From Diplonema papillatum (lineage: Eukaryota; Euglenozoa; Diplonemea; Diplonemida; Diplonemidae), in the NCBI GenBank assembly GCA_030068145.1, contig JAPJBO010000134.1, positions 124,001 to 188,000 on the forward strand: a DNA stretch of 64,000 bases, written 5' to 3'. Shown one piece after another: positions 22,891 to 49,229 of the stretch. A program made the position numbers and the translations under genes. Position 1 is the stretch's first letter. Each line of letters starts with the position of its first letter. Under the pieces are notes generated by a model. That model worked only from the letters and a program-made list of their open reading frames with translations, was not told where the DNA came from and ran no database searches.

Positions 22891-23299
22891 GAGTTTCTGC
22901 TCTTCGTATTGTCTGACGAGAACTGCCTAGAAGAAAGGGAGAAGTAAGAACACGTCTTTGTAACTGATATCACTAGCGCAAGGGAATGTTGAGTGACTGC
23001 CTTAACCCGGGGAAACGAGCTTGGGCGAGGTCACCGGGGGGTTAGGGAGGGTGGGAAAACTTGACTGTTTCTTTGAACCAACCACACCCTGAAGGCTGTG
23101 TAGAGTTCTCTAATCGACTTTCGTGGTGCATCAACTCCCTCAGTGAAACTGTGAGAGTTTCTGCTCTTCGTATTGTCTGACGAGAACTGCCTAGAAGAAA
23201 GGGAGAAGTAAGAACACGTCTTTGTAACTGATATCACTAGCGCAAGGGAATGTTGAGTGACTGCCTTAACCCGGGGAAACGAGCTTGGGCGAGGTCACC
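22891..23299. repeat. Terminal direct repeats of YR element 1 (B1-A2-B2 pattern)
   Basis: A 145-bp sequence occurs identically at 22891-23035 and 23155-23299, separated by 119 bp (23036-23154). In the coding orientation (minus), the copy at 23299-23155 overlaps the stop codon of the RT-RNase H frame (tca at 23295-23297), followed by the 119-bp segment and the second copy. This is the 3' half of the split direct repeats of Ngaro, PAT and VIPER elements (A1-ORFs-B1-A2-B2). The matching A1 upstream of the coding region was not found. Confidence 0.85.
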
Positions 23300-24833
23300 T
23301 TCCATCCACCACAACGCCAGTGAGAAACTGCCTCACCGCAAGTACAATTGAATCGAGCGCATCAGCGCCAATCATGGTCAGCGGTACGCGTGATGGCAAG
23401 TCCGCAGGGTTGCCTTCACTCCTGACCCATCGCACGGAAAGAGCACAGTTTAAGGAACGCACGCGTTCCAATCCTCTGACTACCGCGTTGTTCAACACGG
23501 CACTCTTCAAACAGGCACCCTTTCGGGCAACCCCTTTCACCGTGGTATTATCAACTACGACATCCACTCTTCCCCCTTTGATTGAGACTGGAAGAGCAAG
23601 GATAACCAGGTTAAATGCAATGGCCTCCAGCTCGTTGATATGCAGCGAGCTCTCCGCAGCATTCCACGACCCTCCTAAGACGGTCACTTCCATCGTCCGC
23701 GAATCCACAAGGACACCGCCCCAGCCTTTCTTGCTCGCGTCCACGAAGGCCGTGATGCGCGGGGACTGTTGCAGAACGGGGATGGCCCTCGGCTTTAACA
23801 CCGAGTCAATCCACTCTTGAAGGGACAATCGCACACAGGGAGACACCTCCACCGTATCAGAGGGGAGTCGTGCACCCCGGTTCAACGAATTCGTAACGCG
23901 CCGAAAGAATTTAAGCGCAAACCAAAAAGAGCCTGGAAAGATTCCAGCGACTGCAGAGGCATGCAGCAAACGACCACCAAGAGTTTCGAGCTCGGAGGCC
24001 CGCATTGTTGGCGACGACTTCAGCGTGTAACGCGCTTCCATAAGCTTCCGGCGTAGCTTCCGCGAGACTGCAACACGGTGAGCAACATGGTCCCAATCGA
24101 CCCCGATGAACTCATACCGCGTGGCCGCCGTCTGCGAGTCGGAGGGCTTCCACGTCAGATCGCAATCAGCGGCGGTCTGGTCCAGCCTTCGGGTCGCGAG
24201 CTGCACCGCCGACCTTTTCCCGGCATATCGGATGTTGTCGACCCATATATCGACGGTGACATCCCGCTCGGCAAACTGCGGTAGCACGTAATCCGCGTGC
24301 CCGCCCGCCACGGCTGCCAGCGTGTGCATTATCTCAGGTGCACACGAATGTCCCATGGGAAGCCGCAGAAGTTCCCACCAACCGCCACCGGAATCAGCGA
24401 AGCGGAAGAGGTGACGCGACTCCGGTGGAATCTCGATCGCGTAAAAGCCGGTCTTGAAATCGCGGGTCGAACCACACTCTTCACGGCTTGCCCCCAGATA
24501 CGCCGAAACGTGTCCGAGAGGCACATGCGCCTCGTACCCCCGCTCGTGAGCGGCCCGGTTGCCGTCCACTGTCCACAATATGAAGCGCTGTCGCAGCGCC
24601 CCGTCCTTCTCTTCCAAGACGGTAAAAGGAACCGAAGCGAACGGGCCGGGACCGGTCGAACTGCGGGCAATCCCGTTGTCGGCAAGCAAAGACGCATGTT
24701 CAGGACGAAGGGTTGAGGGTGAACCGATTACCGTCTCGGTTTCAACACGAGGGAAGAACGTTGTTTGCCACGTATCGTCAAAGCGGCGGAGAGCCGCTTC
24801 GTTCATCCGCGCGCGCAGCTTGTCGACCGACAT
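23295..24833 (-). CDS. Reverse transcriptase-RNase H of YR element 1
   Basis: 512 residues from the ATG at 24833; the frame is open further upstream through the recombinase gene. RT landmarks include a palm segment with IEIP, LLRLPMGHSCAPEIMHTL and WVDNIRYAG, and then TRYEFIGVDWDH. The catalytic box reads V-D-N instead of the usual Y-x-D-D, a feature shared with element 2. The RNase H domain follows with its acidic residues in place: AFVDASKKGWGG, INELEAIAF, VVVDNTTVKG and GNPADLPSR. The RNase H is fused directly to RT as in DIRS-order elements. The frame is uninterrupted, so the element may be recent, although its 5' part is displaced by minisatellite. RT lies -1 relative to the upstream recombinase. 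Confidence 0.88.
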   Translation of the reverse strand: MSVDKLRARMNEAALRRFDDTWQTTFFPRVETETVIGSPSTLRPEHASLLADNGIARSSTGPGPFASVPFTVLEEKDGALRQRFILWTVDGNRAAHERGYEAHVPLGHVSAYLGASREECGSTRDFKTGFYAIEIPPESRHLFRFADSGGGWWELLRLPMGHSCAPEIMHTLAAVAGGHADYVLPQFAERDVTVDIWVDNIRYAGKRSAVQLATRRLDQTAADCDLTWKPSDSQTAATRYEFIGVDWDHVAHRVAVSRKLRRKLMEARYTLKSSPTMRASELETLGGRLLHASAVAGIFPGSFWFALKFFRRVTNSLNRGARLPSDTVEVSPCVRLSLQEWIDSVLKPRAIPVLQQSPRITAFVDASKKGWGGVLVDSRTMEVTVLGGSWNAAESSLHINELEAIAFNLVILALPVSIKGGRVDVVVDNTTVKGVARKGACLKSAVLNNAVVRGLERVRSLNCALSVRWVRSEGNPADLPSRVPLTMIGADALDSIVLAVRQFLTGVVVDGR

Positions 24834-24949
24834 CGGCTTGATCGGCGCGACGTGCAACGGCGAGGCACGCTCCTCCTTGCTACGCGGCAGACGCGTCGAA
24901 CCGCCTCGTCGGGTGACGGAGTGGAAATGACCACTGCGGAGGTATCCCG

Positions 24950-25876
24950 TCACAAGTGCCTCGTCACCTTGCCGGTCTCGAGTGCCCTGGCAAGGTCCAC
25001 GTCGCCCCCGGCGTACCGGAGTGTGGTCCTCGAAAGCGTCCCGGGACCTCCCTCCTCCTCGTGCTTCGTCAGCCGATCGACGAGGTGCGGCGACAGCTTG
25101 CCGCTGGTCAGCAACGGCAAGAGGTGCTTCACTGCGCCGCGTTTGATCGAGTGCGCGGTGTACCCCTGCATCTGCACCGACTGACCCCACAGAGAGTCCA
25201 ACGCCGACGTCGTCAGCCTTGTCAGGGGTGCGAAGGGTGCGCACTTCCTGAACAACATGGCGATCTCCGTCGTCAACGGCCCCTGGATCACCGCGAACCG
25301 CGACGCCTTGAAAGGATCGTGCGTCCGCCCCTTCGGCGTCTGGAACCAGTCCACGATCACCTCCTTCTGCGTCACCAAGAGGAACTGGGCGGACGAAAGA
25401 TCCGCCACCTCCGCCCAACGGGATGCCGTCTTCCACGCGACGAGGAGGGCAAGATGAACGGACGGCTGCTGCAGCCTGGCGTGAGACACGAGCTTCTGCT
25501 TCTCGAACGGCGTCGCTTGGCTGTCCGGGATAGCCGCACCGCCACCGCGCAGGGCCTTGGCCAAAACTCTCAGGGGGTGATTCTCGAACCCCATCGCCCC
25601 AAACGAGGCCGAGAGGGCCTTGGTGTAGGCCAGCTGTCCCTGGGGCCGAATACCGGTCGCCGCCACAAAAAGACACGCCGAGTCCGCAGTCATGCCCAGC
25701 CCGCGTGCCGATGTCCATGCAAGCATCCGCCGCCACAAGTTCCGGCGCTCTTGCGTTGTCGATCGAGCCCACATATCCGCCACATGTGGAAACACTTTAC
25801 CTTGATGGGGACACCTCAAAATGCGGTGGAAACAATTTACCCTTGATGGGGACACCTCAAAATGCGGTGGAAACAC
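24950..25876 (-). CDS. Tyrosine recombinase of YR element 1
   Basis: A lambda-integrase-type catalytic domain. The first Arg is in AWKTASRWAEV, the beta-strand Lys probably in QTPKGR, the His/Arg box in YTAHSIKRGAVKHL, and the nucleophile Tyr in TTLRYAGG about 40 residues later. It would join circular or linear cDNA to the target by site-specific recombination in place of a DDE integrase. The gene lies upstream of RT. The N-terminus is odd: residues before VADMWAR are translated 41-bp minisatellite, so the native start and N-terminal arm seem to be missing compared with element 2. The stop is 117 nt before the RT ATG. Confidence 0.82.
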   Translation of the reverse strand: MFPPHFEVSPSRVNCFHRILRCPHQGKVFPHVADMWARSTTQERRNLWRRMLAWTSARGLGMTADSACLFVAATGIRPQGQLAYTKALSASFGAMGFENHPLRVLAKALRGGGAAIPDSQATPFEKQKLVSHARLQQPSVHLALLVAWKTASRWAEVADLSSAQFLLVTQKEVIVDWFQTPKGRTHDPFKASRFAVIQGPLTTEIAMLFRKCAPFAPLTRLTTSALDSLWGQSVQMQGYTAHSIKRGAVKHLLPLLTSGKLSPHLVDRLTKHEEEGGPGTLSRTTLRYAGGDVDLARALETGKVTRHL

Positions 25877-26280
25877 TTTACCCTTGATGGGGACACCTCA
25901 AAATGCGGTGGAAAAAGTTTACCCTTGATGGGGACACCTCAAAATGCGGTGGAAACACTTTACCCTTGATGGGGACACCTCAAAATGCGGTGGAAACACT
26001 TTACCCTTGATGGGGACACCTCAAAATGCGGTGGAAACACTTTACCATTGATGGGGACACCTCAAAATGCTGTGGAAACACTTTACCCTTGATGGAGACA
26101 CCTCAAAATGCGGTGGAAACAATTTACCCTTGATGGGGACACCTCAAAATGCGGTGGAAACACTTTACCATTGATGGGGACACCTCAAAACGTGGTGGAA
26201 ACACCTTACCATTGAGGGGAACATAGTGGAAACACCTTACCATTGATGGGGACACCTCAAAATGCGGTGGAAACACTTTA
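25785..26280. repeat. 41-bp minisatellite, right array, inverted relative to left array
   Basis: About 12 units of the reverse complement of the 21555-22890 unit (tgatggggacacctcaaaat, gcggtggaaacac). It starts inside the 5' end of the recombinase frame of element 1 and ends at 26280, exactly where the 215-bp terminal repeat of element 2 begins. Together with the left array it forms large inverted repeats around element 1. Confidence 0.97.
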
Positions 26281-26888
26281 GAATGCCTTGGCGCTTCACT
26301 TGCTGAGTTCATCATGAACTGCGCTACTGCGCTTCGCGTGCGCTTCACTTGATCGTTGCATTTCTCAGAATGCTTCTGAAATCCACTCATTGCAACAAAG
26401 AAAGGGGAAGAAGAAACAGGGTTTCACGTACGATGGGGTAACCCCCTGAGGTAGCCACTGATTTTGTGAGTGAACAGGCTAGCCCAGGAAGTCACGGGGG
26501 ACGGAGGGTGGGAACCCAGCTCCCCTGGACCTCGCGGATACCGCGGACTGATAGGATAGCAAGCAGCGAATACCAGGATGTGGGTGGGTGGGAATTTTAG
26601 ACTTTGTGTTGCTAAAACCCCAATGACCTGCTGTTTGGTCGTTACGCTGAAACATTCCCACGATGAATCGTAAGAATGCCTTGGCGCTTCACTTGCTGAG
26701 TTCATCATGAACTGCGCTACTGCGCTTCGCGTGCGCTTCACTTGATCGTTGCATTTCTCAGAATGCTTCTGAAATCCACTCATTGCAACAAAGAAAGGGG
26801 AAGAAGAAACAGGGTTTCACGTACGATGGGGTAACCCCCTGAGGTAGCCACTGATTTTGTGAGTGAACAGGCTAGCCCAGGAAGTCAC
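26281..26888. repeat. Terminal direct repeats of YR element 2 (B1-A2-B2 pattern)
   Basis: A 215-bp sequence is present at 26281-26495 and 26674-26888, separated by 178 bp. As in element 1, the copy next to the coding region overlaps the RT-RNase H stop codon (26885-26887). The inner segments of the two elements both start with a G-run followed by ggagggtgggaa, so they are homologous. No A1 copy was found upstream of the recombinase gene. Confidence 0.85.
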
Positions 26889-28426
26889 ACCACCAGACCC
26901 ATATCGCCAGTAAGAAAACTCCTTACCGCAAGTGCCATGTCGGCCAAATTCGCATCGGTCAAAGCCGACACCGGGACCCGCGACGGCAGGTCGGCGGGAT
27001 TCCCCGCACTCTTTACCCAGCGAACAGAGACTGAGATGTTCAGCCCGCGCAGATGCGCGAGCCCCTTCACGACTGCGTCATTTAAGACTTGCGACCGCAG
27101 ACATGAACCCTTACGGGCAACACCTTGTACCGTCGTGTTGTCCACGACCACCGTCACTGCACCGCCCTCGTGCGCCGACGTCACCGACGCCACGCAACGC
27201 TCGAACGCCAGGGCCTCCAACTCGTTGATATGGAGCCTCTTTTCCTTCCGCGACCATCTCGAACCCAACACTTCGATCGCGTTCGTAGCGACGTTTACGA
27301 CGACGCCGCCCCATCCATCTAGACTCGCGTCAACGAAAACGGTCAACGCTGGCACTCTAGCCTCCACCGGCATGCTACGGCTCCCGAGAACGGCTCGAAT
27401 CCACATTTCAAGCAACCGCTGCACACCGCCGGAAAGACGAATCGTCTGATCGACCGCCTTCTCCCCCCGATTGAGGGCGTTCGTCAAGCGCCGAAGGAAC
27501 TTCAGAGCGAAGTAATACTCGCCCACAAAAACGCCGACGATCGCTGACGCATGCAGCAACCGCCCTCCGAGCGTCTCCAATCCCGAAGCAGACATCGCGC
27601 CCGTGCGCACTTCTTCCACGTCCCGTGCGAGCTTCTTGGCCAGCTTCGCCGATATGCCCACCTTGTTCTTCGAGTGGTCCCAGTCCACCCCGATGAACTC
27701 GTATCTCGAGCTCGCTGTCCGGGTGTCCGCTTGCTTCCACGTCACCTTCGCCTGTGCCGCCAAATCGTCGACAATCCGAGTCGCTTCGAGAACCTCCTTG
27801 CGCGATCCGGCGTACCGAATGTTGTCGACCCAAGTGTGCACTGTGAGCGTCGACGGCACTGCGTGTTCCTGCTTGACGAAATCGGGGTGCCCGGCAACGG
27901 TCGACGTCAACGTGTGCATTAACTCGGGTGCACAGGTGTGGCCCATCGGCAACCGAGTGAGCTCCCACCATTCATCGGCGTCATCTCTGAACCGAAACGA
28001 GCCACGCGCGCTGTGCGGAATCGCAACACCGTAGAACCCGCAGCGAAAGTCACGCGTGGATCCGCATTCCGCGTGCACCGCTGACAGGTATTTGCTGACG
28101 TGCTCCAGCGGTACCGACGCCTTGTATCCGTCGGCCTCAATCGCGTTGTTCGCTTCGAACGTCCACAGAATGAACCGCTGTCGCAATGCACCCTCCTTCT
28201 CTTCGATGACCGTGAATGGCACGTTCACTGAACTTCCAGGCCCACGCGCCCTCCGAGCTATGCCGTGAGCTTCCAGCTCATGCGCATGACGTGCTTGCAA
28301 CCGCGAATCCCGACGAGCCGTTGACGCAGCAGTATCCGTCGTCGCGCCAAATGTCCGCCGCCACGTCTCATCGAACCGAATCCTCGTCACATCATTCATC
28401 CGCTCTCGTAGGAGCGGTACGTCCAT
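26885..28426 (-). CDS. Reverse transcriptase-RNase H of YR element 2
   Basis: 513 residues from the ATG at 28426 (MDVPLLRERMNDV), colinear with the element 1 protein throughout. The RT box is again WVDNIRYAG, followed by SRYEFIGVDWDH. RNase H residues are in TVFVDASLDGWGG, INELEALAF, VVVDNTTVQG and GNPADLPSR. The frame is intact. It is embedded in a much longer open frame that runs through the recombinase gene and minisatellite to 30967; that extension is an artefact of low-complexity DNA. The two elements are diverged subfamilies, not recent duplicates. Confidence 0.87.
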   Translation of the reverse strand: MDVPLLRERMNDVTRIRFDETWRRTFGATTDTAASTARRDSRLQARHAHELEAHGIARRARGPGSSVNVPFTVIEEKEGALRQRFILWTFEANNAIEADGYKASVPLEHVSKYLSAVHAECGSTRDFRCGFYGVAIPHSARGSFRFRDDADEWWELTRLPMGHTCAPELMHTLTSTVAGHPDFVKQEHAVPSTLTVHTWVDNIRYAGSRKEVLEATRIVDDLAAQAKVTWKQADTRTASSRYEFIGVDWDHSKNKVGISAKLAKKLARDVEEVRTGAMSASGLETLGGRLLHASAIVGVFVGEYYFALKFLRRLTNALNRGEKAVDQTIRLSGGVQRLLEMWIRAVLGSRSMPVEARVPALTVFVDASLDGWGGVVVNVATNAIEVLGSRWSRKEKRLHINELEALAFERCVASVTSAHEGGAVTVVVDNTTVQGVARKGSCLRSQVLNDAVVKGLAHLRGLNISVSVRWVKSAGNPADLPSRVPVSALTDANLADMALAVRSFLTGDMGLVV

Positions 28427-28560
28427 CGGTGGCACACTATCAACATGCAGCGGCGCGGCCTTCTCCTCGTCCGTCTTGGGCAAGCGCGTCTTTTTCCCCC
28501 GCTTGAACAGCGAGTGCTGCTGCCGGACAAACCGACCCAGGTCCAACGGGTCCCTGTTCC

Positions 28561-29808
28561 TCACAGAAACACAGTGACCTCCGCCGTTCTTAGCACGCGC
28601 GCCAGCACCACCACGTTGTTTGCGTACCGCACCGTCATCTGCGCCACGGTCGGGTCCACCTCGTTCTTGTGCTTGGCCACCCTGGATATCAGGTGCTCTG
28701 GGAACGGAGCTCCTAGGGACTTGGCCTCCAGCAGGTGGTCGACTGCCCCCCTCTTGATGCTGTGTGCCGAGTATCGGCACATCCGAAGCTCGCCCGCCCA
28801 CATTCTCGCGAGCTGCGCTGTCAGCATGCACACATCGGCCCAACGCGACGCCGTCTTCCACGCGACGAGTGTCGCCAAACGAACGTGCGACACCTGGTCC
28901 ATCGCCCATGAAAGGAGCGTGTCGCGCGGAATCGACTCCGCCTGCGACAGCGGGATAGCTGCACCAGCACCACGGAGAGCAGACGCCAACGTTTTCAACG
29001 GCTGGCTGTTGACCCCCAAATGGCCAAAAACCGCCGCCAGCAACCGGGAGTACGCCAGCATACCCTGGGGTTCCACCGAAGTAGCCATCACGAACAGGAC
29101 AGCCGTATCCGGGTTGAGGCCCATACCTTGCGCACTGGTCCACGCCCGGAATCGTCTCCACAAATTGCGTCGATCGTCCACCGTCGATTCCGCCCAAGCA
29201 CGACCCACCACCTGGTGCAATCGGTCGCGTGCTTCCGACACCGTCACGTCTCTCTCTCTGTGCCTCGAAGCAAGAGTCCGCGTGACCGCCACGCCCGTCT
29301 TCGATGCCACTAAATCGAGAACCGCTTGGCCGACGATCGACGCCGCGCGCGACTGCTGTGTGAGAAGCCCTGCCTCCCCGGCTGAGAATCCGCGAAATGG
29401 CGAAGAGTTGGTTCTCGCGCTCCTTGGTGAAGGGGCGAGAGCCTGAATTGATTGTGCGCCGGGGATCACGCTCCTGACGGCTGCTAGGACTGACTCGGTC
29501 TCCTCCTCGAGAGAGACCCTTCGAAACCCGGGAAGAGGGAGGATGCCGGACGCGAGGATCGACCGACGGAGAACTGGCTGCGCGTCCGGAAACGCGCGAT
29601 GGGAAGATGTCGCGGTTGGGGTTTGAAAATTGATCGGGGAGGGAATGGGGTACTTTCCACCCCCCGTCAAAAATTTCCACCCCCCGAAAAGTACTTTCCA
29701 AAATTTCCACCCCCCGAAAAGTACTTTCCACCCCCCGAAAAGTACTTTCCACCCCCCGACGAAAAATTTCCACCCCCCGAAAAGTACTTTCCACCCCCCG
29801 AAAAACAC
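28561..29808 (-). CDS. Tyrosine recombinase of YR element 2, internally deleted
   Basis: It matches element 1 from WAESTVDDRRNLWRR onward and, unlike element 1, keeps an N-terminal region of about 130 residues. The Arg box (WKTASRWADV), His/Arg box (SAHSIKRGAVDHL) and Tyr (MTVRYANN) are present. Between the Arg box and the His box about 60 residues present in element 1 are missing, including the segment with the probable catalytic Lys, so the enzyme is probably dead. There is no ATG between the minisatellite and the conserved region: the only in-frame start lies in the 21-bp repeats, giving a GGWKVLF-repeat leader. The stop is 135 nt before the RT ATG. Confidence 0.78.
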   Translation of the reverse strand: MFFGGWKVLFGGWKFFVGGWKVLFGGWKVLFGGWKFWKVLFGGWKFLTGGGKYPIPSPINFQTPTATSSHRAFPDAQPVLRRSILASGILPLPGFRRVSLEEETESVLAAVRSVIPGAQSIQALAPSPRSARTNSSPFRGFSAGEAGLLTQQSRAASIVGQAVLDLVASKTGVAVTRTLASRHRERDVTVSEARDRLHQVVGRAWAESTVDDRRNLWRRFRAWTSAQGMGLNPDTAVLFVMATSVEPQGMLAYSRLLAAVFGHLGVNSQPLKTLASALRGAGAAIPLSQAESIPRDTLLSWAMDQVSHVRLATLVAWKTASRWADVCMLTAQLARMWAGELRMCRYSAHSIKRGAVDHLLEAKSLGAPFPEHLISRVAKHKNEVDPTVAQMTVRYANNVVVLARVLRTAEVTVFL

Positions 29809-29970
29809 TTTCCACCCCCGGACAAAAAATTTCCACCCCCCAAAATGTACTTTCCACCCCCCGATGGAAATTTTCCACCCCCCAAAAAGTACTTTCTACC
29901 CCCGGACAAAAAAATTTCCACCCCCAGAAAAGTACTTTCCACCCCTCGAAAACTACTTTCCACCCCCCGA
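29650..29970. repeat. 21-bp minisatellite, block 1
   Basis: Units of about 21 bp built on ccccccgaaaagtactttcca with variants (gacaaaaaattt, gatggaaattt). Unit length is divisible by three and the units lack stops, so all frames stay open and produce PPPEKYF, HPPKST or GGWKVLF repeats. These are not genuine proteins. It abuts the 5' side of the element 2 recombinase gene. Confidence 0.96.
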
Positions 29971-30184
29971 CCAGATACGCAAACTCTTTCGAATGCTGCA
30001 CACGGGTATCCTTCAAGTGACCTCTAACTATCTGTTGCATACGCGTATCCGGATCTGAAAGCCGAAGACTTTGTAACACTTTACCGCAACCGAAGTCGCG
30101 AACCGGGTTCGGCTTGCACTGCAAAAGCAGCATAATTGTGTCTTGCGCCCGAGCGCGGAAATCCGCCACCCGCCATTCAGCCAC

Positions 30185-30735
30185 AATCTGCAGGTCTGCG
30201 GGCTTGCGGGTTTGCGGGTATGCGGGGTTTGCGATTTCGGGTTTGCGGGAACGGGTATGCGGGTTCGGGTATGCGGGTATGCGGGTATGCGGGTTTGGGT
30301 ACGCGGGTATGCGGGTTTGGGTATGCGGGTTTGGGTTTGCGGGTTTGCAGGTTCGGGTATGCGGGTTTGCGGGAACGGGTATGCGGGTTTGCGAGAACGG
30401 GTATGCGGGTTCGGGTATGCGGGTTTGGGTACGCGGGTATGCGGGTTTGGGTATGCGGGTTTGGGTTTGCGGGTTTGCAGGTTCGGGTATGCGGGTTTGC
30501 GGGAACGGGTATGCGGGTTTGCGAGAACGGGTATGCGGGTTCGGGTATGCGGGTTTGCGGGTATGCGGGTTTGGGTTTGCGGGTTTGCAGGTTCGGGTAT
30601 GCGGGTTTGCGAGAACGGGTATGCGGGTTCGGGTTTGCGGGTTTGCAGGTTCGGGTATGCGGGTTTGCGGGAACGGGTATGCGGGTTTGCGAGAACGGGT
30701 ATGCGGGTTTGCGATTTCGGGTTTGCCAAAATCCC
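30185..30735. repeat. G-rich short tandem repeat (cgggtatg/cgggttt family)
   Basis: About 550 bp of gcgggtatgcgggtttgcgg-like hexamer-based repeats, with a higher-order period visible in the recurrence of gcgggaacgggtatgcg. It is strongly G-rich on the plus strand and lies between two blocks of the 21-bp minisatellite. The G-triplets could form quadruplexes. Confidence 0.95.
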
Positions 30736-30737
30736 GA

Positions 30738-31078
30738 AAGTACTTTCCACCCCCCGACCAAAAATTTCCACCCCCCGAAAAGTACTTTCCACCCCCCGAC
30801 GAAACGTTTCCACCCCCCGATAAGTACTTTCCACCCCCCGATAAACACTTTCCGCCCCCCGACAAAAAAATTCCACCCCCCGAAAAATACTTTCCACCCC
30901 CCGACAAAAATTTCCACCCTCGAAAAGTACTTCCACCCCCCGAAAAGTACTTTCCACCCCCCGACAAAAATTTCCACCCCCCGACATCGATTTATACCCC
31001 CCGATTTATACTCTATACCCCCCGCTTTATACTCTATACCCCCGGATTTATACTCTATACCCCCCGTTTTTCGGGGGG
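30738..31078. repeat. 21-bp minisatellite, block 2, with degraded end
   Basis: Same unit and orientation as 29650-29970. Toward 31000 the unit changes to a 24-bp form (tatactctatacccccc). At 31062-31095 a reverse-complement unit (gggggtggaaagtac) creates a short inverted repeat at the edge. Confidence 0.93.
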
Positions 31079-31089
31079 TGGAAAGTACG

Positions 31090-31345
31090 TGTCGGGGGTA
31101 AAAAGTAATTCACGGGGGGGGGGGGGGGGGGGGTCAGCCGGCTGATGGATGGATGGATGGTTCTTAACAAGATGCCTGGGGGGGGGGGGGCTTCGACCTT
31201 TTGCAAAATGGCTGACACCACCGGGGATTTTCCCCGGTAAGGTAAAAATGTGACCTCCCTAACCATATAGCCCTTTCTTGCTCTAAGAGAACCCGTTCAT
31301 GAACGGTCACACGGAGACCCTTTAACTCTAAAAAAAAGGTCAGCT
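31090..31345. repeat. Dispersed repeat with poly-G tracts; inverted copy at 51173-51250
   Basis: 31126-31190 (long G-run, gccggctgatggatgg, cttaacaagatgcctgg, second G-run) is found in reverse complement at 51180-51250. The following part (31260-31345) matches the 39.2 kb fragment in inverted orientation. The 3' end of the coiled-coil gene runs into this repeat. Confidence 0.8.
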
Positions 31346-39115: not shown

Positions 39116-39236
39116 CTGCGCGTTGCACATTTTCGTAGAAACGAAAAACTGTACGCTCGAAAAGAGAAGGTTGGGCAGCGTTCGGTTTTTTCTAGCGGCA
39201 CAGTGAGGAGAGGGAACGTTGTTTTTGGTGCAGGTT

Positions 39237-39405
39237 TTAGAGTTAAAGTTCGCTTGAAAGTCCAGGGGTTTAGGGTCTCCGTGCGACCGTTCATGAATGG
39301 GTTCTCTTAGAGCAAGAAAGATATTATATGGTTACGGGTTGTATATTTGGTGCACGCTTTCGTTATGGGGTATGGCTAGCCATGTCCGGGACTGTTTGTG
39401 ACCGC
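39237..39405. repeat. Dispersed repeat fragment (shared with 21.2 and 31.3 kb)
   Basis: The fullest copy of the family: its left part matches 31260-31330 and its right part matches 21164-21230, both inverted. It lies just upstream of the PC-esterase C-terminal exon. Confidence 0.65.
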
Positions 39406-39493
39406 AGATGCATGGTGATGACGCATTTGTCGCTGATGACGACAACAACGACGCCGACGTGACGTCCCCCTCCCTAGTCATAGGTGGCGGGCG

Positions 39494-39566
39494 AGTCGCG
39501 ACTCGCCCCAGACTCGCCCCAGACTCGCCCCAGACTCGCCCCAGACTCGCCCCAGACTCGCCCGAT
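39494..39566. repeat. 12-bp tandem repeat (cagactcgcccc)
   Basis: Six or so near-perfect units preceded by gcgagtcgcgactcgcc, which adds an inverted arm. No stops occur in one plus-strand frame, but nothing suggests a gene. Confidence 0.9.
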
Positions 39567-40059
39567 CCTGTTATGGCGCATGAACACAAGCGCAGGAGAA
39601 GGGGTAGGGTTGAGAAAAACTTGATGTTTGACAGAATACTGCCTAGTGTGCTGAACGTCTGCCCTCACACGTCGGGGTTGCCGTTCTCATTTTGTTGCTT
39701 CCGCCCATGTTAACCTATGGTTCGGTGTCCTTCTGCGATTTTCTGCGTTTCAATCCCGCTTGGAGAGCCTCGAGTTACGGCATGTAGCGCACGCCCGTGT
39801 GACGAAGTAGGGGTCGTTGTTCTCGGAATTTGACAAACAAAAATGCATACCAGGATGTCAGGTTTAAGCAGCGCCGTGTTCTGCAAGTAGTGGTCAGGGC
39901 TATACTGGAGCAGCAGGTCTGTGAAGATGAGTGGGAGTTATCCTACGAGAGCAGATGCGGGCTGACCAACCCCGCAACGGGGTGCGCGTCACCGAGAGCG
40001 GCGCGGCAGGCCATACACACACACGACAGGCAGGGTGGCGAGGAAACGTCGCTCAGGGT

Positions 40060-40863
40060 CATGCAACCTCAAGGTTTCGCAACCTATTCGGCAGAGTCGA
40101 GAGAATCGATCCCTATTCCATGCTTTATCATTCACGGTGAACGCCTGCTTTGGGCACGCTGGTTTGTTCACAGTAGCATCGGTGGTCGACCCGTATGCGT
40201 ACGGTGTACGCGTAAGCGCTTTCATCCCGATGAAGAGATTACTTTACAAGGCACCATTACCACCGTTCATAGAGCACAGATCTTGATGCGAGGGGTTGAT
40301 CCCTTCTTCTAACGTACAAAGTACGTGTCGAGGCTATTTCTCTTCGCTGCCTCAGCAGTGTTGCTATTGGGCAATTTGCGTACCTGCTGCCATCCTTAGA
40401 TGTGGTAGCCGTTTCTCAGGCTCCCTCTCCGGAATCGAACCCTAATTCCCCGTTACCCGTTATAGCTACGGTAGTCCACTACACTACCGTCAAAAGCTGA
40501 TAGGGCAGAAGCTCTTGCGGGCTAGCACCGACTTGAAGTCGTGTGCTATCACTCGATTGACCTGTTTCATCCACACACCGCTGCTATTGCTAGCGTTGGT
40601 TCTTATCTCGGTCAATTGTATCCACCTCGACCCCGCGGTTTTAAGGCCACGGAGTTGAATCGAGTTGGATTCTTCGGACATGTATTAGCAATGGAGTTAC
40701 CATTGTTATCCAACTGGGCCCAAAAGGCACCTTCCCCGCGTAGATTGCCACCGATTTAATGAGCCGTCTGCAGACCCACTGTTAATCAATTTACTCTGAG
40801 ACTGCATGGCTTAATCCTTGAAACAAGCGTAATATTATGACTACTGGCAGGATCAACCAGGTT
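40060..40863 (-). pseudogene. 18S rRNA 5' fragment, divergent, internally deleted
   Basis: The minus strand begins AACCTGGTTGATCCTGCCAG at 40863, the universal 5' end of eukaryotic SSU rRNA. It continues with ATTAAGCCATGCA, GGCTCATTAAATC, GCTAATACATG, GGGTTCGATTCCGGAGAGGG, GAGAAACGGCTACCACATC and GGCAGCAGG-CGCAAATT. The 530-loop sequence (GCCAGCAGCCGCGGTAA) is absent. About 220 nt later the conserved GTGAACAAACCAG, CAAAGCAGG and AGCATGGAATA of the region after V4 appear, and the match fades near 40060. It therefore lacks an essential part and most of the molecule. Some substitutions look paired (AATGGTAACTCCATT in place of the usual helix), so the source gene may itself have been divergent. 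Confidence 0.8.
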
Positions 40864-42540: not shown

Positions 42541-42548
42541 CCTTGCCT

Positions 42549-43154
42549 TCACCTGCTCGTCTTCGCGGCTCCGGTTCGTGGGCTGTCTACCTTTGATGTG
42601 CGCCCCTCGTTCGCAGGCGGTTGCTGCGGCCTCGGCTTCTTGCGGGCGCTTCCACCGGCTTGCTCGTCGTCGCGTCCGCGCTTCCGCTGGGAGCAGGCGC
42701 CGTCCGTCCCTTTTGCATGTTGGCCGTTCGGTGGTGGCGTCCGATCTGTTGGTTGTGGGCCCTGTGGCCGCGGCTTCGGTTCTGGCACCTTCGAGGCGCA
42801 CGCGCTCGCCCGTTGGCCGACAGGCCCCCGCTTCACCGCTGGCCGTGCCCCGTGGTGCCCTCGCTTGCAGCACTGCCTGGGCCTGTGGCACCGCACGTCC
42901 TCGTACCGCATGCATGTATCGCACGTCGGCAGCTCGTGAGTCAGGCACTTGTGGTGCGAGTTTTTACAGCATGCCGCCACCGACGTGCACATGGAGCACG
43001 CCGTCATGCGGTGCTGCGTGCACATCATCTTCACCGCCAGCCCGTCCCCGTCCTCGTGGTGGTTGGAGCACCCTTCCAGCTTAAATTTTTGGCGGGTGCA
43101 GCCCTCGCACCTCGGCTTGCCGTGCAGCGGACACACGCGCTGGTTTCCCTCGAA
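42549..43154 (-). CDS. Protein with three Cys/His zinc-binding-like repeats
   Basis: Three consecutive modules follow one pattern: C-x2-H-x4-C-x2-C, a variable stretch, then C or CC, x2-3 and HH. Module starts are CPLHGKPRCEGC, CTQHRMTACSMC and CLTHELPTCDTC; their ends are GCSNHH, CCKNSHH and CCKRGHH. The remaining 100 or so residues are basic and Pro-rich, with KRGRDD and ARKKPRP patches that could be nuclear signals. This resembles a repeated zinc knuckle but fits no named family I recall. Upstream (43399-43160) a different frame also looks coding and aligns with the paralogue near 60.1 kb, so a frameshift or short intron probably lies around 43160. The N-terminus is therefore uncertain. 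Confidence 0.55.
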   Translation of the reverse strand, partial: FEGNQRVCPLHGKPRCEGCTRQKFKLEGCSNHHEDGDGLAVKMMCTQHRMTACSMCTSVAACCKNSHHKCLTHELPTCDTCMRYEDVRCHRPRQCCKRGHHGARPAVKRGPVGQRASACASKVPEPKPRPQGPQPTDRTPPPNGQHAKGTDGACSQRKRGRDDEQAGGSARKKPRPQQPPANEGRTSKVDSPRTGAAKTSR

Positions 43155-43679
43155 AACGGGGACACCGTCCGGAATCCTTCAGAGAGCTTCGGGTCGCCTC
43201 CCTGAACCGCCAGCGTCTGGCCCCTCCTGGCAGGTGCCGACACATCCTCGGGACCCCACTGGGCAGCACGATCGTCCGCTAAAGCCATGGCGCGTGCGTA
43301 GTAGCTGCGTTTCCAGTTATTTCCTTCCTCTCGGAATATCGGTCTTCGCGCGTGCCCCGTAATGTACGGAGGGCCACCAACCGTCCTCAGCGTGTCCACC
43401 CGTACTTTCTTTTCCGCTGGCAGCAGCGAGTCGGGCGGCCACCTGCGGGCTGCACAGGGTCGCCAGCATCTTCACCATCTTCTTCGTTCGCATGAGGAGC
43501 GAGACTTTCAAGGAGGTCGCTCTTTTTTGTTTGTGCGTGCCGGTTGATCATTTTCCCACTTGTATTTACCCTGTGTATATTCAGGTAAGGAATTCTGATC
43601 AACCACCAAAACACGCTGCCTACGTCTTTTTAGCCTGCACAATACATTGAAGGGCAACCCGCAAGATTGTTAGTACTAA

Positions 43680-43944
43680 AATTTTATTTCCCTTCTCTGG
43701 GGAAGAGCTGCCGCGCCAAACCTCGCTTCTTTGTACCACATGCGGAGAAAAGAGAAAGAGAGACATAAATAGAGACAGAGAGGGTTTGGAGGAGGACGCT
43801 GGCGTGCGTCGGGGCCAGTGAGAAGCACCGGCCACCTTGCTAGATACATCCTGCCGCGGAAAAGGAGCCCTTCCATTCGCTGGGGTCAGCACCCCTGCGG
43901 AGGCCCTCTTCCGTGTGCCTTCACGCGGAAGGAAACAGTAGGCA
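43680..43944. repeat. B2 terminal repeat of element 3
   Basis: 265 bp from aattttatttccc to cagtaggca. It is identical to 44991-45255 except for one base near 43865 (ttccattc against tttcattc). It forms the 3' outer end of the element. Confidence 0.93.
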
Positions 43945-44109
43945 GGATTGTATCGGTCTGTGTTGAGCAAGGATTTCTTCTTCCTTGTCGCACAAGGGGA
44001 AAGGAGGAGGAAAACAGAAGATCCAGGGCAGTGCGGAGGGGATGCAGTAATCACGCTTCCAGCCTCATGCACGCACGTGCCCGATGCCCTCTGTGGAGCG
44101 GAAGGAAGT

Positions 44110-44725
44110 CAGCCCTCTGCTGAGGGGAAAAGCTGCATAGCCCTCTGCGGAGGGAAAAGCAACGTCATTTCCCGCACGGGGAAGCCCGCCCTCTGCTGAG
44201 GGGAAAACGCTGCACGATGCCACCCCTGCTGGGGAGCCCTCTGCGGAGGGAGCGCGACGTCATTTCCCGCACGGGGAAGCCAGCCCTCTGCTGAGGGGAA
44301 AACGCTGCACGATGCCACCCCTGCTGGGGAGCCCTCTGCGGAGGGAGCGCGACGTCATTTCCCGCACGGGGAAGCCAGCCCTCTGCTGAGGGGAAAACGC
44401 TGCACGATGCCACCCCTGCTGGGGAGCCCTCTGCGGAGGGAGCGCGACGTCATTTCCCGCACGGGGAAGCCAGCCCTCTGCTGAGGGGAAAACGCTGCAC
44501 GATGCCACCCCTGCTGGGGAGCCCTCTGCGGAGGGAGCGCGACGTCATTTCCCGCACGGGGAAGCCAGCCCTCTGCTGAGGGGAAAACGCTGCACGATGC
44601 CACCCCTGCTGGGGAGCCCTCTGCGGAGGGAGTGCGACGTCATTTCCCGCACGGGGAAGCCAGCCCTCTGCCGAGGGGAAACGCTGCACGATGCCATCGG
44701 GGGACCCTCGCGGAGGGAAGAAGTT
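44110..44725. repeat. 95-bp tandem repeat inside element 3
   Basis: Six occurrences of catttcccgcacggggaagc at 44166, 44261, 44356, 44451, 44546 and 44641, a period of exactly 95 bp. Sub-repeats gccctctgcggaggg and gccctctgctgagggg give hairpin potential (cctctgcggagg). It separates A2 from B2, which are contiguous in textbook Ngaro elements. Confidence 0.97.
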
Positions 44726-44765
44726 CATGGCGCGATACCCTCATCGCATTGGGAGGGAGGGAGGG

Positions 44766-45255
44766 AACTTTTTTAAGCCCGGCGGAGGTCAACTGACCGG
44801 AGCTACCGGGGAGAGTGTGCTTACGTTGTGTGGTAACCTGATACGTTCGTGTGGTATGCGTCGATTGTCTAATGAGCTTGAAGCCCCGCATGGGCGCTTT
44901 GTTCCGTGCTGTGGGCGCCGCCCGATGCACGCGGTGATTCGTTTGCGACAATAAAACCTGAGGGAAAAAGACTGCGTGTTTATCCCTCTCAATTTTATTT
45001 CCCTTCTCTGGGGAAGAGCTGCCGCGCCAAACCTCGCTTCTTTGTACCACATGCGGAGAAAAGAGAAAGAGAGACATAAATAGAGACAGAGAGGGTTTGG
45101 AGGAGGACGCTGGCGTGCGTCGGGGCCAGTGAGAAGCACCGGCCACCTTGCTAGATACATCCTGCCGCGGAAAAGGAGCCCTTTCATTCGCTGGGGTCAG
45201 CACCCCTGCGGAGGCCCTCTTCCGTGTGCCTTCACGCGGAAGGAAACAGTAGGCA
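44766..45255. repeat. A2 and B1 repeats of element 3
   Basis: A2 is 44766-44992 (227 bp) and B1 is 44991-45255 (265 bp); they overlap by two A residues. This junction is what a circular or template-switched intermediate would contain, and in this class it is thought to serve as the recombination site. Confidence 0.92.
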
Positions 45256-45296
45256 TTATTTAAAGACGCCGCGCCCCCCTCCCCCCCCTCAATCTC

Positions 45297-46052
45297 TCAG
45301 TCTCTGGTGTCCAGGTCGGCGACCATGTTCTCGCCCGGAACCAGATGGGTGAGCACGTCCGCATCGCGCAGGCGCTCCTGCATCTCAACGATGAGGCGGT
45401 TTTCCGCTGGGTGCGGGGACGCAAGCTTTCGGTGGCGGCTCTCGGCCGTGCTGTTGTCGTGGAAGACATCCAGCGTCACCCACCCAGTCGTGACGTGTCG
45501 AGCCAGCAGGACGCCAAGAATCGCCGTCACCAGCTCGCGCCGCCGAATCGGCGTCGGCGGAGCCAGCCTCGCCAGCCGATCCTTCCATCTCCAGCTCTCG
45601 CGAGCGAGGACGGTCCGTCGCGTCGGATCCAGGACGACCACCCCACCTCCCTGGTCGGATGCGTCCGTCCAGACGTGCACTCGCCGCGCTGGGCGCCTGA
45701 CTCTGCGGGGGGAAGCGTCCCCCAGCCAGCGATCACCAGCTTCCAGCTCCGCGAGCAGCTCCTGCGGGAGCTCCACGAGCGTGTCCCAGTCGCGGTAGGT
45801 GAGGCACCTGCCACTCACCAGTCGGCTCGCACGCAGCAGCCCGGGATACGCCGCCGCCGGGGACCTCATGACGTACAGTGCCCAGCGCAGGCACCCGATA
45901 CGCTGTGCCAGGGCCCGGAAGGACGTCACGCGTTGCGGCTTGTTCGCGCGGCAGACTGCTGCCCATTCCCGCGGGATCGCGATCGTTGAAGGTACCGACT
46001 TGCGAGGGGCCTTGCGCCTTGTCCTCCCGGATCTGGATCCTGGTGTCGGCAA
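45297..46052 (-). CDS. RNase H of YR element 3
   Basis: A domain with acidic residues in VHVWTDASDQGGG, RRRELVTAIL, DVFHDNSTAES and the final VADLDTRD, typical of a retroelement RNase H that removes the RNA strand after reverse transcription. It is in a different frame from the RT; similarity passes from one frame to the other between about 45960 and 46010. The upstream helical segment (TSFRALAQRIGCLRWALYV) corresponds to the RT-RNase H connection in elements 1 and 2. The break may be a decay frameshift, a sequencing indel or a recoding site. Confidence 0.72.
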   Translation of the reverse strand: MPTPGSRSGRTRRKAPRKSVPSTIAIPREWAAVCRANKPQRVTSFRALAQRIGCLRWALYVMRSPAAAYPGLLRASRLVSGRCLTYRDWDTLVELPQELLAELEAGDRWLGDASPRRVRRPARRVHVWTDASDQGGGVVVLDPTRRTVLARESWRWKDRLARLAPPTPIRRRELVTAILGVLLARHVTTGWVTLDVFHDNSTAESRHRKLASPHPAENRLIVEMQERLRDADVLTHLVPGENMVADLDTRD

Positions 46053-47040
46053 GCACGGCCCTCAGGCTCCGCTCGTCCCGGACGACGTCGGACCTTGTCC
46101 AGCCCCCGTAGGCTATGTCGTCGTAGATCGCCAGACTGCGGCTTCCGATGCCGGCCAGTCGGCGGACCCCCAGGGTCGTCAGCTGGGCGATCGCCGGCGC
46201 GCGCGCAATGCCCGGGACGGCTATCCGGAAGACGTAGTACGCGTTGGCCGCCCTAAACCCCAGGTAGTCCGCCAGCGCGTCGGACACCGGAAGCTGGTAG
46301 AAGTAGCCCAGCAGGTCTAGGGTCGCGAACCAAGCGTGGTCCAGGACGAAGCCCTCCACATCCCTGAGCGACGGGGTGATGGGGGACAGCGGTTGGGAGG
46401 TGCGGCTGTCAAAGGGCCTGCCATCGATCAGCAGACGGGTCTCTTCCTTCCCCTTTTTCGGGATTTTGAACACCTTCAGAGTGATCCGCGGCCTCTTTTC
46501 GACTCTCCTAACGACGCCACTCTGCAGCATCACCGCCAGGTCGGCCTCAGTGATGTCCGAGCTCGGTGGAGCGTGGTGCCTCTCGTGCGAGAGGAGCATG
46601 GGCTCTCGCGTCAGCTGGCGCAGGACGCGAATCTCGTCCTCCCACAGGCCTCGCTCGACCTTCCCGTAGTCGGCCTTTGTGACCGGCATGGTGTCGATGG
46701 GCCCGCGGGACGTTCTGTACACCGGGCTCGGTGCCTTCGTGTACGTCCTCGATGCCAGTTCCGATAGCGCCTCTTCCTGAGCCCGAACCCCTTCGACGTG
46801 CGTGCTCACGTCCCCGCGCAGCAGCCAGTCTTCCAAGGTCACCGCCCTGTCGAAGTCGGCCTCGCTCTGCTCGCCCATGTCGCCCCGTAACCGGCTTTCC
46901 CCCCATGCGAGCAGGCGGTCCAGATACCCGGCTGCCCCGGGATGGCGGCTGTTTGCCCAGTCCCGCAGGGGATGCGAGCTCTTCAGGTCCTGTGCGTACT
47001 CGGGGCAGAACGTGCTCGTCCTGGCCGCACCCTTCACCTT
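45985..47040 (-). CDS. Reverse transcriptase of YR element 3
   Basis: Open frame from the end of the recombinase gene. RT motifs in order: a basic segment ITLKVFKIPKKGKEETRLLID, FATLDLLGYFYQLPVS (motif A, with catalytic Asp), VFRIAVPGIARAP (motif B) and LAIYDDIAYGG at about 46104-46130 (motif C, canonical YDD, unlike VDN in elements 1 and 2). The start is unclear: the first in-frame ATG (MGEQSEADF) lies inside the N-terminal region, and the frame overlaps the YR stop, so frameshifted expression from YR (-1) is an alternative. The catalytic residues are intact. Confidence 0.8.
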
Positions 47041-48002
47041 GAGCACGCCATCAGGTCGCCGCTCACCGGCGTGTGGAGCAGCAGCGACGCGCGAGCCGTC
47101 CTCACGCTGTCCGGGGTCAGGCAGCCCCAGAGATAACGCTTCAACGTGTCCTTGGACTGGTGACGGGCCATGAGCAGGAGGTCCTCCCAGCCCGCCCCGC
47201 TTCTGGCCAGGTGCTGGAGCGCCCCTCTCTTCCAGCTGTGCTCTGCACAAACCGGGAACAGCTTCCTCGCTTCCCGCAACAGCTTCCTCGTCGTGGCCTC
47301 GGTGAAGCGAGCCCCCCGCTGCACCCACCTGCTTACTCGCAGCGCCACGCCCAGGGGGACCCGGTAAGTCACCTCTGACTCCCTCATACGAAGGCTCGCC
47401 TCCTTCGTGGTCCACCACGAAACTCGGAGCAGACCCGGCCCCACGATGACCACGTCTGTCGGGGCCAGGGCCCGCAGGTCCGCCATCCGCAGCGCTCCCG
47501 CCCACGCCAGGCAGGCAGCCACCGTCACCTGCTCGTCGCCGCCCCTGACCAGCCCCTCGACGAGGGTCCGTTGCTGCTCCAGCGTGATCGGGGGGGCATG
47601 CGCCGGCACTTCCCTGCGCTCGAGCCTGGCTTTGAGGATGGCCTTCTTCATGGCCGCCAGATCCCCCGACGGCACCCCGAGCTTCGCCCCCAGCACCTCG
47701 ACGTACTTGCCGACGGAGGCCGTGCGCATCTCGCCGGTCCTCGGCCTGCCTCTCTGCCCCGGCACCCTCGCGACGTACGCTTCCAACTGCTCCTGTGTCA
47801 TGCCCTTGCCGAGCATGGCGGTCGCGAACGCCTTGATTCTCAGCGCGGGGGGAGCCGCCTGCAACCCCGCCACGGCTGTGAACCGCGTCAGCGACGCCAC
47901 GATCGACGCCCGCTGCGCCGTCGTCTTCTTCGAGGTCGCGCCGCCCTCGAAAACCGCGACCCGCCTCTCCCACGCGGCAAACCCCCCTCTCTGGGAGGGG
48001 AG
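47034..48002 (-). CDS. Tyrosine recombinase of YR element 3
   Basis: All catalytic positions are recognisable: Arg in WAGALRMADL, Lys in SWWTTKEAS, His and Arg in AEHSWKRGALQHL, a second His in MARHQSKDTL and Tyr in KRYLWG. The frame is in register with the upstream Gag, separated by one TGA (48003-48005), and there is no ATG for about 65 codons. The conserved-looking N-terminal part (SKKTTAQRASIVASLTRF) precedes any ATG, which favours readthrough of the TGA over independent initiation. Confidence 0.82.
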   Translation of the reverse strand, partial: LPSQRGGFAAWERRVAVFEGGATSKKTTAQRASIVASLTRFTAVAGLQAAPPALRIKAFATAMLGKGMTQEQLEAYVARVPGQRGRPRTGEMRTASVGKYVEVLGAKLGVPSGDLAAMKKAILKARLERREVPAHAPPITLEQQRTLVEGLVRGGDEQVTVAACLAWAGALRMADLRALAPTDVVIVGPGLLRVSWWTTKEASLRMRESEVTYRVPLGVALRVSRWVQRGARFTEATTRKLLREARKLFPVCAEHSWKRGALQHLARSGAGWEDLLLMARHQSKDTLKRYLWGCLTPDSVRTARASLLLHTPVSGDLMACSR

Positions 48003-48965
48003 TCACCCGTTTTTTGTCCTGCGGGAGACGGGCCCGTGCGAGAAACGGCAGTCCACCCTTGTGCATCTGCCTGCTTTGAAATTGCGGCAGGCCGGCGCCT
48101 GACGCGGAGGGACCCCCCGAGCGCGGGGCGGAACCGACTTGGGCGCCGCCTTAAACTGCGCCGTGAACCGGCGCCGGGCCTGCCGCACTCTCTCGGGCAG
48201 AAGTTCCACCCTCAGCACGTCGCGCATCACTAGCGCTGCGCTGGGGTCGCGGGTCTCGTACTCCGCGTTCTGCTCCTCGTAGGAGTGGAAGAGCCCCCCC
48301 AGGCGGAGGATCCACATTCGTTTCGGGGGACCGGATTCCCCGCGGCGCAGGCGGACGAGGTCACGGACCCGTTCCGTGACATCGTCCCGCCTGTCCTGCA
48401 GCTGTTGGTTCCCTTTGAACCTGTACAGCCTTCGGACTGCGTCCTCAAACCCCCGCATGTTTGCCGCCGTCGGCTGCATTGTTCTCCACCGCTCCGGGTC
48501 GAGGAACGCGAAGTCGTCATCGTCGTCATCGTCGCCGACGTCCTGCCCCGCGACTGCCGCGCCATCCAGCAGCGCGAGCACCTCGCGCTCGTCTTCGAGG
48601 CTGCCCAGCTCCCGCTGCAGCGTCGGGCCCAGGCCCGCCCAGAACCCTGGGTCCTGCTCGTCAAAGGCGAGAAAGATTTCTTCCGCCCTCGCCCTCGGCA
48701 GGCCGGGCATGAGCTCGGCCGGCATCAGTGGTACCCCCCCCTCTCCCGGTAGCTCCTCTCCGCCTCTTGGCCTCTTGGCCTCCTTCTCCGCCTCGTCCTG
48801 CTCACGTGCCCTCTTCTGGGCAGCGCCGATCTCCCTCTCGGCGGCTTCAACTTCGGCCTCACGCCGGGCCAGGCCTGCCTCGAGATCGAGAAGGCGCTTC
48901 TCCAGGAGAGCCAGCCCCTCGGCGTCCCTCTGCAGGGCGTTCTGCTGTTGCTGCTTGGGGGGCAT
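48003..48965 (-). CDS. Gag-like protein of YR element 3 with CCCH zinc finger
   Basis: 320 residues from the ATG at 48965, only 24 bp inside the A1 repeat. There is an N-terminal coiled coil (residues 10-60), an acidic run with seven Asp near residue 160, a helical middle region and near the C-terminus a CCCH finger, C293-x7-C-x4-C-x3-H. Such fingers bind RNA, and here presumably package element RNA in place of the CCHC knuckle of most retroelement Gags. It ends at TGA, after which the same frame continues into the recombinase. Confidence 0.75.
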   Translation of the reverse strand: MPPKQQQQNALQRDAEGLALLEKRLLDLEAGLARREAEVEAAEREIGAAQKRAREQDEAEKEAKRPRGGEELPGEGGVPLMPAELMPGLPRARAEEIFLAFDEQDPGFWAGLGPTLQRELGSLEDEREVLALLDGAAVAGQDVGDDDDDDDFAFLDPERWRTMQPTAANMRGFEDAVRRLYRFKGNQQLQDRRDDVTERVRDLVRLRRGESGPPKRMWILRLGGLFHSYEEQNAEYETRDPSAALVMRDVLRVELLPERVRQARRRFTAQFKAAPKSVPPRARGVPPRQAPACRNFKAGRCTRVDCRFSHGPVSRRTKNG

Positions 48966-48988
48966 CGCAACTTGGGGAAACTTGGGGT

Positions 48989-49229
48989 AACTTTTTTAAG
49001 CCCGGCGGAGGTCAACTGACCGGAGCTACCGGGGAGAGTGTGCTTACGTTGTGTGGTAACCTGATACGTTCGTGTGGTATGCGTCGATTGTCTAATGAGC
49101 TTGAAGCCCCGCATGGGCGCTTTGTTCCGTGCTGTGGGCGCCGCCCGATGCACGCGGTGATTCGTTTGCGACAATAAAACCTGAGGGAAAAAGACTGCGT
49201 GTTTATCCCTCTCAAAAAAAAAAAAAAAG
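48989..49229. repeat. A1 terminal repeat of element 3 with poly(A)
   Basis: 227 bp (48989-49215) matching 44766-44992 from aactttttt to cctctcaa, then 14 A residues. An aataaa lies about 40 bp before the A-run on the plus strand. The related relic at 35.9 kb has the same aataaa-poly(A) ending, so the A-run belongs to the element boundary. Confidence 0.9.

Follow-up and report, generated by a model that had tools for sequence, protein, structure and literature searches.

Probable VIPER/TATE-type retrotransposons with a tyrosine recombinase upstream of the reverse transcriptase in the diplonemid Diplonema papillatum

We analyzed a stretch of 64,000 nucleotides from Diplonema papillatum (GenBank assembly GCA_030068145.1, contig JAPJBO010000134.1, positions 124,001 to 188,000), here called the window, which contains three retroelements (elements 1, 2 and 3) that encode a tyrosine recombinase (YR) and a reverse transcriptase (RT) with RNase H (RH). 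The host is a marine flagellate and a close relative of the trypanosomes. All three elements are located on the minus strand, with the YR upstream of RT-RNase H in each, and they are probably VIPER/TATE-type YR retrotransposons of a diplonemid that belong to at least two branches, with elements 1 and 2 in branch I and element 3 in branch II. VIPER and TATE are VIPER-like YR retroelements of kinetoplastids that have the order gag-YR-RT/RH, split repeats and overlapping frames (PMC6681497, PMC12278014).

Gene order across the genome

RT and YR match rows in the genome were paired by their coordinates within 4 kb; the counts of genome matches are lower bounds, and a few elements gave two rows. 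For the two branches together, 175 of 203 RT rows had a YR adjacent on the same strand, which was upstream every time and downstream in no case. The 84 RT rows and 138 YR rows of branch I gave 66 pairs, with 66 YRs upstream, 0 downstream and 18 RT rows unpaired, while the 119 RT rows and 143 YR rows of branch II gave 109 YRs upstream, 0 downstream, one on the opposite strand and 9 RT rows unpaired. Paired YRs were located on the RT strand in 175 of 176 cases, unlike the opposite-strand YR of Kangaroo; in the single opposite-strand case, the RT match is partial and the YR lies at a distance of 2.6 kb. For the element 2 family (78 RT rows), the order was judged on 22 loci, 20 of which had the YR motif, always upstream of the RT. 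Because 18 matches to the element 2 RT and 46 matches to the element 3 YR are 100% identical (window copies included) and the order is shared by 175 pairs, the elements are not a product of chance.

These counts confirm the first-pass annotation of the window, which had described YR before RT-RNase H in the three elements. It had also proposed a genome-wide check of gene order for copies with the YR at the 3' end, none of which were found among the 175 same-strand pairs.

Branch II families with 53-59% RT identity (e.g., G000:C684:70075-70888) mostly have 0.66-0.81 kb between the YR and RT matches, a distance that is only 6 bases for the family of element 3, and the longer gap would be an extra domain or a spacer.

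Layout of the three elements

Element 3 (43680-49215) has the complete layout A1-gag-YR-RT-RH-B1-A2-B2, with the RT/RH frame broken in the window copy (Table 1). Gag comes first in this best preserved element, as annotated previously, and gag-first relatives were found elsewhere in the genome for element 1 (locus L069) and element 2 (locus L070). Elements 1 and 2, which have neither gag nor A1, are 5'-truncated members of branch I that sit in a 41-bp minisatellite, and each keeps the YR, RT/RH and B1-A2-B2. The split direct repeats, described from the outset as full in element 3 and partial in the other two, are indeed A1-B1-A2-B2 in the former and B1-A2-B2 only in the latter. The layout of L069 is A1 (1215-1314 in locus coordinates), gag, YR, RT/RH, B1, A2 and B2 (5597-5741), so that A1 at the 5' end and B1-A2-B2 at the 3' end are present in both element 3 and L069. 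In L070, the first 60 bases of the element 2 A2 are found again close to where the gag frame has its 5' end.

The break in the RT/RH frame of element 3 near 46000 is probably a deletion in the window copy, because in L071, a diverged relative, this region is a single open frame that contains additional residues. The 60-base junction at the break has a single exact occurrence in the genome, the window copy, and the open RT frame is mostly 960 amino acids in the other element 3 copies, as compared to 805 in the window copy. In element 2, an internal deletion in the YR relative to locus L009 takes the Lys of the R-K-H-R-H-Y set.

The inverted minisatellite arms of element 1 were considered as DIRS-type inverted repeats and ruled out, with L069 having the 41-bp unit outside complete split direct repeats. 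Tandem repeats of 21 bp and 8/14 bp were observed in front of the truncated element 2 (window 29641-30991).

Table 1. Features of the three elements and adjoining minisatellites, in window positions.
Feature	Positions	Strand	Remarks
Element 3 A1 (5' split direct repeat)	48986..49215	-	230 nt, 100% identical to A2
Element 3 gag-like open reading frame (ORF), CCCH zinc finger	48003..48995	-	Stop TGA at 48005-48003, then CTC
Element 3 YR ORF, in the gag frame	47034..48002	-	PHROG 216 integrase E 3.8e-4; PF00589 E 0.23; conserved R..K..HSWKRG..RH..Y
Element 3 RT, -1 frame relative to gag/YR	45999..47031	-	Box IYDD; RVT_1 E 0.028
Element 3 whole open frame containing RT	48150-45736	-	
Element 3 frame holding RNase H	45297..46061	-	Aligned part 45935-45300; frame differs from RT in window copy
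Element 3 B1	44991..45260	-	270 nt, 99% to B2
Element 3 A2	44763..44992	-	Two bases common to B1
Element 3 95-bp tandem array between A2 and B2	44139..44696	-	
Element 3 B2 (3' end)	43680..43949	-	99% to B1
Element 2 frame holding YR	28561..29895	-	gag and A1 missing; internal stretch absent relative to L009
Element 2 RT-RNase H, with stop	26885..28600	-	28600-26888 without stop; PF17917 E 5.5e-5; 18 full-length matches at 100%, window copy included
Element 2 B1	26673..26888	-	216 nt, 100% to B2
Element 2 A2	26496..26672	-	Between B1 and B2; A1 lost in this copy
Element 2 B2	26280..26495	-	
Element 1 YR	24953..25795	-	5'-truncated at minisatellite; gag and A1 missing
Element 1 RT-RNase H, with stop	23295..24851	-	To 23298 without stop; PF17917 E 0.0011
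Element 1 B1	23155..23299	-	145 nt, 100% to B2
Element 1 A2	23036..23154	-	Same place as A2 of L069
Element 1 B2	22891..23035	-	
41-bp minisatellite, ~33 copies	21555..22897	.	Abuts element 1 3' end; L069 ends at same point of same unit
41-bp minisatellite, 12 copies	25786..26280	.	Inverted relative to array 21555..22897

Identity of the encoded proteins

The Pfam matches of the RNase H of elements 1 and 2 and of the RT of element 3 (Table 1) are all below the curated cut-offs. The diverged element 3-type RT in L071 matches the Ty3 RT/RNase H structure 4ol8 (E 3.6e-5), and the match of the element 3 YR to the PHROG 216 integrase covers residues 124-291. A colinear alignment was obtained between the branch I and branch II YRs (P 3.4e-5), which have in common the residue pattern R, K, HSxKRG, H, Y. 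Within each branch (5 and 2 sequences), the columns R, K, H, R, H and Y of this pattern do not vary. The residue set of tyrosine recombinases is R-K-HxxR-H-Y. The set is given as R-H-R-Y in PMC3212892. The RT box reads I-Y-D-D in both branch II sequences.

The RNase H frame ends at B1 or within 37 nt of it in elements 1, 2 and 3 and in L069, which leaves no room for a methyltransferase, and none was present among the Pfam matches of the element proteins. No matches were obtained from NCBIfam. Profile searches against the PDB gave only a caulimovirus polyprotein at E 0.2 for the branch I RT, nothing for the branch I YR and weak, unrelated matches for the branch II YR. No match was found to the RT or YR of either branch in IMG/VR, to the branch II RT or the branch I YR in GTDB contigs, or to the RT of the element 2 family in phages, in scans with a pattern step that is best suited to close relatives.

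Comparison with known YR retroelements

The present elements share with VIPER and TATE the gag-YR-RT/RH order on one strand, the A1 and B1-A2-B2 repeats, the overlap of the YR and RT frames and the absence of a methyltransferase, which VIPER is also described as lacking (PMC3266345, PMC4157794). VIPER and TATE are without target duplication; among the present elements, none was seen by eye in L069, and element 3 is ambiguous in this respect. The differences are the diplonemid host, the CCCH rather than CH-box finger in the gag of element 3, the split of gag and YR by one in-frame TGA, and the frequent location of element 2 copies in tandem repeats. The RNase H of VIPER-like elements has been reported to have an affinity to hepadnaviruses (PMC6681497).

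In DIRS, PAT and Ngaro elements, the YR is located on the 3' side or inverted (PMC3266345, PMC4157794, PMC8547959, PMC5633606), and the first-pass annotation was right both in contrasting these with the elements in the window and in likening the latter to VIPER. Ngaro elements, e.g., in Cafeteria burkhardae (PMC8547959), resemble them in having split direct repeats, RT/RH and YR, and no methyltransferase, but have the order gag, RT-RH and then YR, whereas the YR precedes the RT in 175 of 175 same-strand pairs here. DIRS-1 and PAT/Kangaroo also have YR and RT-RNase H, PAT has split direct repeats and some DIRS1-like elements have overlapping YR and pol frames; unlike the present elements, they have a methyltransferase, a catalytic YR domain on the 3' side or an inverted YR (Kangaroo) and, in DIRS-1, inverted repeats (PMC3266345, PMC4157794, PMC5633606).

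A derivation from Ngaro or PAT elements, in which the YR would have moved ahead of the RT once in this host and independently of VIPER/TATE, seems unlikely. Split direct repeats of the A1-B1-A2-B2 type are common to Ngaro and PAT (PMC6681497, PMC8547959) and would agree with such an origin, but the order is fixed in two branches with very diverged YR and RT, no paired copy has the YR last, and the host is a euglenozoan, like the hosts of VIPER and TATE.

The host and its spliced leader

Diplonemea is a class of Euglenozoa in the taxonomy, and the 3' end of the spliced leader has 628 exact copies in the genome (0 for the reversed control). The leader "Euglenozoa 14", which we take to be that of Diplonema, was found minus its first two bases (37-mer) in 517 exact copies (control 0). 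It is listed under this name in PMC3795323. The 37-mer occurs on many of the largest contigs and appears dispersed among the matches listed. With a euglenozoan spliced leader present 517 times, the earlier premise of an algal-type, non-kinetoplastid-looking genome is misleading. Another euglenozoan as host, or an origin of the window as a contaminant in an algal assembly, is very improbable given the 37-mer on many of the largest contigs. The scattered 37-mers (e.g., G000:C1:52839-52875) may represent retrocopied trans-spliced mRNAs or element transcripts.

As diplonemids form the sister group of kinetoplastids, an element of VIPER/TATE type is expected there without the need for a separate lineage. 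Of the previous suggestion of a broader or separate lineage, the latter part is not required, but a distribution of VIPER/TATE-type elements wider than Kinetoplastea is supported. VIPER-like elements have been described as "known only from kinetoplastida" (PMC3783388). For D. papillatum, a single line in PMC10161547 mentions more than 60 ORFs that resemble TATE, MULE and Helitron proteins, and the partly surveyed literature contained no description of VIPER-like elements in diplonemids beyond the TATE mentioned in that line.

Families in the same layout in a diplonemid would suggest that the common ancestor of diplonemids and kinetoplastids already had elements of this type. VIPER and TATE have been described from kinetoplastids with many degenerate copies, while the families in the present genome consist of dozens of near-identical copies, and such live-looking copies are suited to studies of the expression and circle integration of YR retroelements.

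Overlapping frames and a possible decoding scheme

Gag shares its frame with YR, from which it is divided by one TGA, in element 1, element 2, the 88% family, the 78% family (for which the gag frame was judged on the last 78 codons) and element 3. The gag TGA is followed by CTG in the four families other than element 3, and TGA CTGGC was found at the junction in 49 of 58 YR rows, among which two loci are present twice. RT/RH occupies the -1 frame with respect to gag/YR. The layout of the overlap, with gag and YR split by one TGA-CT stop and the RT frame free of stops across the whole YR, is new here.

The -1 frame across the YR contains 0 stops in 6 of 6 lineages, as compared to 3.0-10.7 expected from synonymous codon shuffles that keep the protein and the codon usage. 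The expected numbers were 3.0 (element 3), 6.8 (element 1), 5.4 (88% family), 10.7 (element 2), 10.4 (78% family) and 5.6 (L071, in which the YR is truncated by the locus), and the fractions of shuffles at or below the observed number were 0.032, 0.001, 0.001, 0, 0 and 0.0007, respectively, the smallest of these being below 1/3000. The gag genes showed no such depletion, with 9, 8, 8 and 10 stops in the -1 frame as compared to 8.4, 11.7, 7.0 and 13.1 expected. For RT-RH the numbers were 17, 17 and 15 as compared to 23.4, 18.8 and 21.4, with two of the three showing a slight deficit (fractions 0.047 and 0.051).

It could be argued that the open -1 frame is a by-product of base composition and that RT translation begins at a separate start close to the YR end, and this would be favored by the GC-richness of the YR genes (GC content at third codon positions 0.72-0.88), by Met codons in the RT frame 40-57 codons past the YR stop in each of five lineages and by the lack of conservation of the -1-frame protein across the YR. 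We consider this improbable given the total absence of stops in the six lineages against the shuffles, the absence of depletion in gag and the start of the open stretch, with the last -1-frame stop located 34-145 nt before the gag stop in all four lineages measured. The ratio of nonsynonymous to synonymous substitutions between families was 0.32 and 0.29 for the YR frame, 1.36 and 1.65 for the -1 frame and 1.46 and 1.08 for the unused +1 frame. The -1 frame is like the +1 frame in this respect, yet has no stops, and it therefore appears to be held open without being conserved in amino acids.

One stop codon may govern the production of Gag, Gag-YR and RT. Termination at the gag TGA would yield Gag, read-through of TGA-CT would yield Gag-YR, and RT-RNase H would be made by a -1 shift near the gag stop or by re-initiation at the start codon that overlaps the TGA, which is ATG in element 1 and the 88% family and GTG in element 2, the 78% family and element 3. 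Judged by eye, the sequence around the gag stop fits a canonical -1 slippery heptamer in elements 1 and 2, but not in the 88% and 78% families. RT-RNase H made in this way would carry an unconserved leader read across the YR.

More tentatively, the elements could belong to a YR-retroelement clade of glycomonads (diplonemids plus kinetoplastids) in which one stop codon decides between three products (Gag, read-through Gag-YR, and RT-RNase H by -1 shift or re-initiation), the whole YR gene is also translated in a second, open but drifting frame, and branch I, with its Asp-to-Asn RT box, aims circles at minisatellites. The overlap test provides a specific, checkable model for the production of three proteins from one YR-retroelement transcript.

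Mobility, targets and recent activity

The B1-A2 junction has one shared base in L069 and two in element 3, as expected if the junction copies the joined ends of a circle. In the proposed cycle, the RT would copy the RNA, the A and B repeats would rebuild a circle, and the B-A junction of the circle would be the recombination site, which the YR would cross with a short target of matching sequence, frequently located in tandem repeats, and no target duplication would result. L069 and element 1 in the window have their 3' ends at an identical position within the 41-bp unit. No target duplication was seen by eye in L069 when compared with this unit, and its end, GAAACTC, resembles the target GAAACAC; element 3 sits in a T run, so that a reading of target duplication is ambiguous there. 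Both B copies are held by 16 of the 22 element 2 loci, of which 9 have tandem-like 3' flanks, as compared to 0 of 58 control stretches chosen from the window outside the elements.

Many copies are nearly identical and appear to reflect recent activity. Compared with L009 over 3 kb, 13 of 17 other element 2 loci differ by 0-2 bases, one by 3 and one by 22, while the remaining two would need gaps to be compared. In a comparison with L040 over 2.8 kb, 14 of 18 other element 1 loci differ by 0-3 bases and four by at least 54, with gaps counted as mismatches; seven further element 1 loci (L046, L048 and L061-L065) were left out. The B1 and B2 repeats of element 2 have 0-3 differences in 216 bases in 16 of 16 loci.

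Assessment of the assignment

Several observations weigh against the assignment to VIPER/TATE-type elements and the decoding and integration proposed for them. The affinity to VIPER and TATE is deduced from architecture and host, and the RT profiles of the two branches align weakly (E 0.25). No integrase model in Pfam, NCBIfam or PHROG matched the branch I YR, which gave chance-level families only, and the YR of L071 had no match to a Pfam, NCBIfam or PHROG family. The branch I YR is accordingly a putative assignment from homology to branch II and the residue pattern, in which the site expected as HxxR reads HSxKRG. AlphaFold models of both YRs were unusable (mean predicted local distance difference test scores of 35.9 and 34.5). 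A different upstream stop was found in 9 of 58 YR rows, and the depletion of stops in element 3 taken by itself is weak (fractions of 0.03-0.04). The proposed read-through, frameshift and circle derive from sequence. The 517 leader copies exceed the 110 spliced-leader RNA genes reported for D. papillatum (PMC10161547).

The RT box of branch I, finally, reads V/I-D-N instead of D-D in 5 of 5 aligned sequences from four families. This is the evidence for a dead RT in branch I, the elements of which would be copied in trans by branch II or by other retroelements. This alternative is unlikely, as RT-RNase H stays open at 54-56% identity between element 1 and the element 2/78% families, and the families that carry V/I-D-N were amplified recently. 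Altered conserved RT residues have been noted also in VIPER and TATE (PMC12440569). In the window, Asn replaces the second Asp of the box at 23298-24851 and 26888-28600, both in recently amplified families.

Other features of the window

A partial eukaryotic 18S rRNA sequence of 819 nt (40042-40860) covers model positions 4-1116 and therefore has an internal gap; it resembles a dispersed fragment of ribosomal DNA. Four tandem units with long ORFs are located at 1257-13567, spaced by 3624, 3083 and 3624 bases, and the one that was scanned codes for a haem peroxidase of animal type (PF03098, E 3e-89).

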